DNA of 64,000 bases from Sulfurovum sp. TSL6 (GTDB lineage: Bacteria; Campylobacterota; Campylobacteria; Campylobacterales; Sulfurovaceae), in NCBI RefSeq assembly GCF_019972115.1, contig NZ_BPFJ01000002.1, positions 248,001 through 312,000 of the forward strand, read 5' to 3'. Positions 58,834-61,242 of the stretch are shown here, piece by piece (within the stretch, counting starts at the first letter, position 1; every line of letters starts with the position of its first letter). The translations under genes were made by a program, and so were the position numbers. The notes under the pieces were generated by a model. The model did no database searches. It saw only the letters and a program-made list of their open reading frames with translations, and had not been told where the DNA came from.

Positions 58834-60102
58834 CTAAAGTGCCTGATATGCAATGTCAGTACGACACTGTTTGCCTGCAAAGTGCACTTGGCCTACCAGC
58901 ATATACGCATGTCTTTGTGCTTCTTTAATACTGTCACCGACACCTACACAGACCAGTACCCTACCGCCTGTTGCATAGAGTTTTCCATCTTCACCGCGCG
59001 TCACTCCAGCATAAGAGATATGTGCATTTTCACGTACCTCTTCATGGTAGATATCATCCACGATGATCTCTGCAGGAGGTGTACTTTTATACGGGTAGTC
59101 TTTACTTGCCATCACTACACCGACTGCATATTTGTCATGAAACTCTATCTTGGCATTTTTAAGATCACCCGTTGCTGCCTTATAGAACAGTTCAGAAGCT
59201 GGAGACTTAAGCAGTGGCATCAACTCTTCACATTCAGGATCACCAAAACGTACATTATACTCAAGAATGATAGGCTCACCTTTTACCACCATCACACCGA
59301 TAAAAAGTACACCCGTAAACGGCATACCTTCGGCTTCCATACCCTTAAGTGTAGGTTCTATGACTCTTTCGTTCAACTTACGATAGATCTCATCATTGAC
59401 CAGAGGTGTGGGTGCATATGCCCCCATACCACCTGTATTGGGACCTTCATCATTATTGAGGAGTCTTTTATGATCTTGTGCAGCAGGTAAAACCACATAA
59501 TCTTTTCCATCACAAATAGCAAATACAGAAAGTTCATAGCCATCCAGGAATTCTTCTACAACAATACTTGTTCCCGCATCACCAAAAGAGTTACCTGAAA
59601 GCATTTCACCTGCAGCTTTTTTTGCTTCGTCATGACTTTGCGCAATGATCACACCCTTACCACCACAAAGCCCGTCTGCTTTCACTACGATCGGTGCATC
59701 CAGTGTCATGATAAAATCATATGCATCCTGCAATGAATCCGTTTCGATGTACTTAGCGGTAGGCACATTGTGACGGGCAAGAAAGTTTTTCATAAAGATC
59801 TTAGAACCTTCAAGTTGTGCAGCTTGGGCTGTGGGTCCAAAGATCGTAAGACCTCTGGCTTTAAATACATCAACAATACCCCCTACCAATGGTGCTTCAG
59901 GACCAACGATAGTCAGTTCGATACCATTGGCTTCAACAAAATCAGCCAATGCAGAAAAGTCACTAATCTCTAGGTTTTCACCTAATGTGTCTGTCGCTCC
60001 ATTACCCGGTGCAAAATAGATCTTCTCTACATTCTCATCTTTTTTCAATGCCAAACCAATAGAATATTCTCTACCGCCAGCACCTATTATCAATACGTTC
60101 AT
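58834..60102 (-). CDS. purD: Phosphoribosylamine-glycine ligase
   Basis: The 422-residue ATP-grasp enzyme joins glycine to phosphoribosylamine in purine synthesis. It starts NVLIIGAGGREYSIGLALKKDENVEKIYFAPGNG. It has the ATP-binding VKADGLCGGKGVIIA and the signature RFGDPECEELMPLL. An ncRNA-like region precedes it. The RDD gene follows after 9 bases. Confidence 0.97.
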   Translation of the reverse strand: MNVLIIGAGGREYSIGLALKKDENVEKIYFAPGNGATDTLGENLEISDFSALADFVEANGIELTIVGPEAPLVGGIVDVFKARGLTIFGPTAQAAQLEGSKIFMKNFLARHNVPTAKYIETDSLQDAYDFIMTLDAPIVVKADGLCGGKGVIIAQSHDEAKKAAGEMLSGNSFGDAGTSIVVEEFLDGYELSVFAICDGKDYVVLPAAQDHKRLLNNDEGPNTGGMGAYAPTPLVNDEIYRKLNERVIEPTLKGMEAEGMPFTGVLFIGVMVVKGEPIILEYNVRFGDPECEELMPLLKSPASELFYKAATGDLKNAKIEFHDKYAVGVVMASKDYPYKSTPPAEIIVDDIYHEEVRENAHISYAGVTRGEDGKLYATGGRVLVCVGVGDSIKEAQRHAYMLVGQVHFAGKQCRTDIAYQAL

Positions 60103-60175
60103 TTAAAATTCTCCGAAAAAGTTTAATTATCACCATAATATGCGGTTTGTTTAGTAGGGATGACATTGTGCGTAG

Positions 60176-60236
60176 AGGGTTTTGGAAAGGTTTGAAGGCG
60201 AACTGTCTTGTTCATCGATGACCTTTCCAAAGTCCT
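60176..60236 (-). ncRNA. Strong long-stem hairpin between the ncRNA candidate and purD
   Basis: A 16-bp stem (AGGGTTTTGGAAAGGT with ACCTTTCCAAAGTCCT, two G-U pairs) encloses a 29-base loop that itself contains a GAAC/GTTC helix. It lies 75-130 bases before purD. It may be the 3' domain of the RNA described next or a purD leader structure. Confidence 0.5.
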
Positions 60237-60269
60237 ATTCGTGCAAAAATCGTCACTAATAAGGCCCGG

Positions 60270-60449
60270 GTGAGCGTTCTGCTTAAAGTCGGCCCTATAT
60301 AGCCAACAGTGCAGGAGAGAGTCCCTCTTTAGGGGATGATGTCTCGCTGACAAAGTCAAGCTCAGATGACAACTTCCACACACCAAGAGACTACATGTCC
60401 CACTAAGATTAATGTTGGACCCCAAATACAGTAGTCGCATCACCTAGGT
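60270..60449 (-). ncRNA. ssrS: Structured RNA upstream of purD, candidate 6S RNA (purD-motif region)
   Basis: Region without coding character and with higher G+C than its surroundings. A TATAAT box (60462-60457) sets a likely 5' end near 60449. GGTGATG (60444-60438) can pair with CATCATC (60341-60335). Inside, GACTAC/GTAGTC and GTCC/GGAC form a second arm. In Campylobacterota a conserved RNA upstream of purD (the purD motif) has been equated with 6S RNA; that equation and both ends are from memory or inferred. Confidence 0.5.
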
Positions 60450-60564
60450 AAAATTTATTATAACCTATTTGGAGTTAGAAGTGAGTAAATTATGATATGT
60501 AAGAACGTTTTTCTAGCAAAGCTAGACAAAACTACATTATCGCAGGACTTGCTAAAGCTATACA

Positions 60565-61242
60565 CTACGATAACTTCAGCAGAAGGCTCTTGTGACTAGC
60601 CACACTTTTTGCTTTTAGTATACAGGCATCTATATTTGGTGTATCTGACACTTCACAGCGTGCATGAATAGGTAAATGTCTTTTTGTCGCTTTACCTATC
60701 ACTACGGCTGTATAGCTTTCATCCCATTCAAAATTTTTCAAGAAACAATGAATAGTCGAAGGAGATGTGAAGATAATAACGGCATTTTTACCCGGTTTCT
60801 CTTTTTTCTCATAGTGGATACAGGAAGTCTCATAAATGATCTGTTCCTGAAGTTCTATACCCGCCTTGGCTAAAAAAATTTTTGAATCAAAAGAGACTTC
60901 TTTAGGGCGTAAGTATAAGATCTTTTTATCTTGAAACTGTATGACAATATCTTGACTTAATGTCTCACCATAAAATGATTTAGGTTGGTATACTACTTTT
61001 CCACCCAAAGATTCTATCTCTTTTGCCGTGGCTGAACCTATGGCTAGACAAGGGTACTTTTTCCATTCGGGGTTTAATGCTTCTGCACTCTTGACCGCCT
61101 GCTTGGAGGTAAACATCAGTGTGTCACATTTTGAAAAATCTATCGTTATCGGCAGAAGTGAAAAACGTATGATGGGCAGATGTATCGTTCCTTCTCTGGG
61201 CATAGGAGATAAAAGATAGATCATAGCATCAGAGTGGGTCAT
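60565..61242 (-). CDS. hemD: Uroporphyrinogen-III synthase
   Basis: The 225-residue protein has the weakly conserved two-domain HemD layout: MFTSKQAVKSAEAL (about residue 42), CLAIGSATAKEIESLGG, then FTSPSTIHCFLKNF (about residue 157) and VVIGKATKRHL. It closes the tetrapyrrole ring in heme synthesis. Sequence identity in this family is always low, so the call rests on the paired 'TSxxAV / GxxTA' motifs. The start lies 2 bases after the CDF transporter stop. Confidence 0.87.
   Translation of the reverse strand: MTHSDAMIYLLSPMPREGTIHLPIIRFSLLPITIDFSKCDTLMFTSKQAVKSAEALNPEWKKYPCLAIGSATAKEIESLGGKVVYQPKSFYGETLSQDIVIQFQDKKILYLRPKEVSFDSKIFLAKAGIELQEQIIYETSCIHYEKKEKPGKNAVIIFTSPSTIHCFLKNFEWDESYTAVVIGKATKRHLPIHARCEVSDTPNIDACILKAKSVASHKSLLLKLS

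Follow-up and report, generated by a model that had tools for sequence, protein, structure and literature searches.

The window analysed here, a 64,000-nt stretch of the genome of Sulfurovum sp. TSL6, holds purD and, next upstream of it on the same strand, the gene for uroporphyrinogen-III synthase. Between the two genes lie a 6S RNA and, adjoining its 3' end on the purD side, a second structured element of about 118 nt (element 2), which is separated from purD by 45 bases. The features are as follows:

58834-60102, minus strand: purD coding sequence (TIGR00877 at 497.6 bits, cut-off 288; Pfam GARS domains)
60148-60265, plus strand: element 2, a MITE-related core with a predicted RNA-type rod (match to covariance model R2; fold z -5.22; covariation in 44 relatives)
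60264-60394, minus strand: match to Rfam RF01069 (purD motif), which covers the 3' part of the 6S RNA (67.4 bits, cut-off 41)
60265-60450, minus strand: 6S RNA of about 186 nt (ends deduced: the 5' end from the position of the -10 box, the 3' end from that of the closing stem)
60457-60462, minus strand: 6S gene promoter, -10 box TATAAT (from sequence; found in the loci of 67 of 69 relatives)
60565-61242, minus strand: uroporphyrinogen-III synthase gene (Pfam HEM4)

The locus was compared among 70 species of the genus (L002-L071; L001 is a duplicate of the window's own locus); of 78 congeneric genomes, 71 contained a match to 60103-60480. A preliminary description had presented 60120-60462 as a structured, non-coding region of raised G+C content before purD, and in these respects it was borne out. 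The rise in G+C was modest, since 0.431 compared with 0.382 for the whole window is the 91st percentile among 343-nt windows. A coding frame was rejected, the register of the longest one (106 codons) being open in none of 68 relatives. On the minus strand, 60103-60452 folded with a z of -2.85 and none of 100 shuffles folded equally well. The identity of purD, also proposed there, is clear from its TIGR00877 score.

Only one Rfam family, RF01069, was matched between purD and the HEM4 gene, and a scan at E values up to 10 added no other credible match. No terminator-like site was found on either strand. From element 2 to purD, no promoter signal rose above chance on either strand; in the stretch from element 2 to the ribosome site, a conserved promoter for purD was unsupported (40 of 69 loci as compared to 34.3 +/- 3.7 in shuffles).

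The minus-strand stretch 60265-60450 is the Campylobacterota 6S RNA and constitutes the already known part of the locus. This identification, put forward as a candidate in the preliminary description, follows from the covariance-model search suggested there, in which RF01069 exceeded its cut-off, from the closing stem and central bubble, and from the published identification of the locus in Campylobacter jejuni and Helicobacter pylori. According to that publication, motif RF01069 is a shorter version of the 185-nt 6S RNA of C. jejuni, the 6S RNA of H. pylori lies in the same region and a 13-nt pRNA was observed in relatives (PMC3847290). The consensus fold of 30 relatives (RNAalifold) was a rod with a central bubble and a closing stem that shows covariation; it comprised 54 pairs, 19 of them changed on both sides, at -52.25 kcal/mol. 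RF01069 was matched once in the genome. The TATAAT box, which had likewise been pointed out, was also present in 67 of the 69 loci, close to where the 6S RNA starts, and represents a sigma-70-type promoter as judged by consensus only. The window's copy thus resembles Campylobacterota 6S RNA in sequence, in its length of near 185 nt, in lying before purD and in having a closing stem and a central bubble, with no notable difference, and by homology it would inhibit RNA polymerase.

Element 2 was recognized as a structured stretch kept behind the 6S RNA in relatives. Among the 70 loci, 47 scored above 40 bits in a profile search for it. Covariance model R1, derived from the purD copies alone and used at E values up to 0.01, added seven loci at full length and another truncated at a contig end, which gave 55 of 70. 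Two loci were borderline (L049, a partial match to R1; L053, matched by R2 only) and no convincing element 2 was found in 13 by the profile, R1 or R2, the model of the other strand. With 15 of 70 loci lacking the element or borderline, it is therefore dispensable. The following parts were distinguished within it:

60166-60191: left arm of an inverted repeat, 26 nt, 77% complementary to 60221-60246
60167-60178, plus strand: 5' strand of the core helix, nearly invariant (column identity 0.95 in purD copies, 0.71 in MITEs)
60221-60246: right arm of this repeat, pairing with 60166-60191
60234-60246, plus strand: 3' strand of the core helix, nearly invariant (column identity 0.97 in purD copies, 0.69 in MITEs)

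Pairing of the arms was examined in 44 of the 47 loci, near-duplicates L004, L005 and L060 being omitted. Own partners fitted far better than swapped ones for the outer stem, the middle and the hairpin (0 of 2000 permutations each). The core arms hardly vary and were uninformative in this test (407 of 2000).

Relatives of element 2 were also encountered far from purD. R1 matched 14 of 397 genomes of the class and R2 matched 24 of 397, in 13 of 68 genera; within the genus, R2 matches occurred in 61 of 78 genomes. One genome from another family (G222) contained at least nine full-length R1 matches (best E 4.4e-14), and its end-pattern matches numbered 44 in each direction (forward and reverse). 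The number of model matches per genome reached 32 (in G043). The dispersed relatives are imperfect palindromes, mostly of 160-164 bp, with ends CCCAAAT...ATTTGGG. They are represented by the following loci:

L079, L086, L092, L096-L101, L138-L157 (G222), L102-L106 (G012) and L107-L137: dispersed 160-164-bp MITEs

A motif scan of 84,980 species' genomes returned 31 stretches, all titled Campylobacterota or a taxon within it. From 95 loci, 75 end pairs were obtained (including two of odd length, 172 and 180 bp), of which 73 had unique flanks. An exact 5-bp target duplication was displayed by 46 of these 73 copies; mean flank identity at 5 bp was 0.847, versus 0.469 +/- 0.021 for swapped partners, and other lengths did not stand out. 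Being short, non-coding and multi-copy, with terminal inverted repeats and a target-site duplication, the dispersed palindromes are, on the basis of their sequences, mobile miniature elements (MITEs). No Rfam match was found at the element in the six loci searched.

Several observations concern individual copies. A second copy in the TSL6 genome, outside the window (C2:102930-103045, L246; 78.8 bits), has protein-phosphatase/kinase-like and transporter-like frames as neighbours, named by eye. In genomes G086 and G206 (L083, L084 and L240), a copy occupies the 16S-23S spacer next to a tRNA gene and is antisense to the rRNA transcript; such a copy, in another genus than that of the window, lies between the tRNA and the 23S rRNA. 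End pairs of 187-188 bp in G043 and three 95-nt model matches ~100 kb apart in genome G001 are length variants that may constitute MITE sub-families.

An autonomous parent element was not found by end-pattern searches of 11 genomes, nine of them with end matches, which yielded no kb-sized end pair. IS1380-type transposons have CC ends and generate 4-5-bp duplications. By this likeness they are possible mobilisers of the Campylobacterota MITEs, with the difference that the 11 pattern-searched genomes contained no kb-sized pair.

The palindrome family is apparently undescribed so far: in the literature, mostly outside subscription journals, neither the repeats nor another element separating 6S RNA from purD were found to be described. 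The REP repeats reported, also from a Sulfurovum strain, in PMC3733652 measure 20-40 bp, a size that sets them apart from the present family. YPAL/RU-2 and ERIC/RU-1 of Enterobacteria are closer in appearance, as they too are imperfect palindromes (100-200 bp) that form long stem-loops and have target duplications; ERIC/RU-1 has an orientation-dependent effect on mRNA stability, and MITE RNA hairpins of the NEMIS/Correia repeats of Neisseria were proposed as RNase III substrates (PMC2229807). The likeness to YPAL and ERIC is limited to size and folding, whereas sequence and phylum are different and here one copy is fixed beside a 6S RNA. Moreover, the same text gives duplications of 3-26 bp for YPAL, TA ends for ERIC and TA ends with 24-bp terminal repeats for NEMIS/Correia (PMC2229807), as opposed to the uniform 5-bp duplications described above.

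Element 2 is homologous to the MITE core, since full-length matches in the dispersed palindromes were obtained with R1, a model of the purD copies only. The TSL6 genome contains no match to either MITE end pattern, and terminal repeats and a target duplication are lacking in the window's copy. Because end matches are absent and the 6S 3' end adjoins the core, element 2 is considered to derive from a MITE and not to be one itself. The parts that are conserved have also changed. Both core helix strands are more conserved beside purD than in MITEs (see the list above), while the loops close to the tip, with identities of 0.79 and 0.81 in purD copies, are more conserved in MITEs (0.94 and 0.89). 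We infer from this shift that a sequence-bound role may have been gained beside purD. Distances between elements followed those between purD genes (r 0.38) and between 6S RNAs (r 0.289; Mantel, 0 of 2000 permutations each), which fits vertical descent, though weakly. Element 2 is very probably a domesticated MITE core.

The converse origin was also considered, namely that the mobile palindromes arose from a new class of small RNA gene antisense beside the 6S RNA, in parallel to SINEs, which derive from structural RNAs. This is compatible with the tree, since the latter is unrooted and places purD copies and MITEs mostly on either side of a long branch; it nevertheless appears quite unlikely. 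The tree was poorly resolved: with 90 copies it resolved little, purD needing three changes and MITE two, and being unrooted it left the direction from mobile to fixed unsupported.

The preliminary description had assigned the whole region to the purD strand. This was correct for the first ~186 nt, to which the claim is limited because the second half folds better on the plus strand. For 60131-60270, the plus strand gave a z of -5.22 (0 of 200 shuffles) versus -2.20 (7 of 200) for the minus strand, and R2 scored 100.2 bits on the plus strand and 41.7 on the minus strand. Mean fold energies of minus and plus strands were -31.3 versus -51.6 kcal/mol in 43 purD copies and -28.9 versus -54.6 kcal/mol in 45 MITE cores; in 71 full elements they were -54.8 versus -84.3 kcal/mol, the better strand of each element being picked by energy. 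Consensus energies of the same 44 purD copies were -6.93 (minus) and -26.66 kcal/mol (plus). Relative to shuffles, z values were -4.14 (minus) and -8.50 (plus) in 15 of the 43 purD copies and -4.55 and -9.15 in 15 of the 45 MITEs, with the plus strand lower in all 30 sampled copies.

Mismatches pointed in the same direction, as G.U pairs on one strand read as A.C on the other. Among pairs predicted on the plus strand, G.U exceeded A.C cells by 249 to 16 in purD copies and by 455 to 44 in MITEs, counts that are biased toward this strand by the choice of pairs. In a test scoring G.U and A.C alike, A.C outnumbered G.U on the minus strand by 142 to 20 in the purD copies and by 167 to 25 in the MITEs. 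Pairs predicted from the minus strand gave a weaker, mixed result (57 A.C versus 38 G.U cells, but 10 versus 18 pair kinds). One MITE pair was G.U in 22 and U.G in 19 of 52 copies. The plus-strand alignment of 44 purD copies contained 31 pairs with 96.6% of cells paired and 15 changed on both sides, and that of 52 of the 71 full MITEs contained 59 pairs, 94.8% and 46, respectively; none of 500 shuffles of either alignment matched any measure, although deriving the structures from the alignments tested biases these figures in their favour. A structure on the purD strand was consequently dropped after comparison of fold energies and of G.U with A.C, and that of element 2 is, according to the folding models, written on the plus strand, antisense to 6S RNA and purD.

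The dispersed copies occurred in all four orientations relative to their neighbours (10, 9, 6 and 13 of 38; eight more were unclear), so the asymmetry is hard to attribute to a mutation bias of the host strands. It can be explained by selection for RNA or single-stranded DNA on the plus strand. An unexpressed relic, whose palindrome would be kept by DNA-level processes such as folding of single-stranded DNA or arm-to-arm repair, would be in keeping with the abundance of mobile relatives, and a strand-specific single-stranded DNA fold would yield the identical G.U signature. It is judged improbable in view of a core that is nearly invariant in 44 loci despite a mean pairwise identity of 0.70, and of conserved internal loops that persist where arm-to-arm repair would erase them.

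The preliminary description had allowed for two elements in the region. Two are indeed present, the mobile origin and the opposite strand of the second having been unforeseen. Element 2 has no Rfam match and lies on the wrong strand for a second 6S RNA or a purD riboswitch, both of which were rejected. More broadly, purD lies downstream on the strand of the 6S RNA in all 69 loci that reach it, directly so whether or not the element is present, as might be expected of a cis-regulator of purD; the wrong strand, the missing riboswitch match and the varied genes adjoining the core's relatives render such a function very improbable.

The junction of 6S RNA and purD was also inspected in 50 loci from other genera. 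In 47 of them purD followed the 6S motif after a gap of 14-219 nt. In L212, L214 and L219 the gap displayed, by eye, a terminator-like hairpin and a T-run. With hairpins in the gap in several genera, the junction appears often to carry one, and in most of the window's genus it is occupied by the MITE core. A different palindromic repeat was observed in the gap of G151, which shares its genus code with G222 (L211, L247). Its apical motif resembles that of element 2 by eye and parts of it recur within that genus, in eight of 18 genomes. Neither R1 nor R2 supported orthology with element 2, and it is regarded as a separate repeat.

The hairpins in L212, L214 and L219 would suit element 2 acting in a minus-strand 6S-purD transcript, as a processing or stop signal that fixes the 6S 3' end. 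Its position against that end agrees with this, and the minus strand also folds somewhat above chance. This function is nonetheless given a low probability, as the minus-strand fold is far weaker, with A.C mismatches where the plus strand has G.U, and a T-run is absent.

A stand-alone small RNA gene on the plus strand, acting in trans through the invariant core helix and internal loops, would account for RNA-type covariation restricted to that strand and for the purD copies having a sequence-bound core of their own. It is considered unlikely: no excess of plus-strand promoters precedes element 2 (28 of 43 loci versus 26.8 +/- 3.1 in shuffles), a terminator-like site is absent and the plus strand leads downstream directly into the 6S gene.

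The best joint explanation is a 6S RNA on the minus strand with an adjoining domesticated MITE core that acts on antisense RNA of the plus strand, to which we assign a probability of about 0.45. A miniature inverted-repeat element would have inserted in an ancestor of the genus, lost its terminal repeats and then been kept. Antisense transcription leaving purD on the plus strand would produce an RNA that folds into the rod (-50.5 kcal/mol in the window) just before the polymerase enters the 6S gene. The rod might then mark the antisense RNA for processing, that is cleavage, or for a stop, and would thereby shield the 6S unit from antisense transcription. Shielding as the actual mechanism is a tentative proposal and rather doubtful. 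It is supported by the rod adjoining the 6S 3' end and by the 16S-23S spacer copy, which is also antisense to its transcript; it is weakened because promoter excess on the plus strand and a terminator-like site are absent and because the element is dispensable.

If this explanation is right, the locus would offer a clean case of a miniature transposon without ends that turned into a fixed, sequence-constrained element beside a global regulator. The comparison of G.U with A.C mismatches shows the RNA-bearing strand of a palindromic repeat. Models are now available for an apparently unnamed repeat family of Campylobacterota, and its putative RNA can be searched for in transcriptomes.
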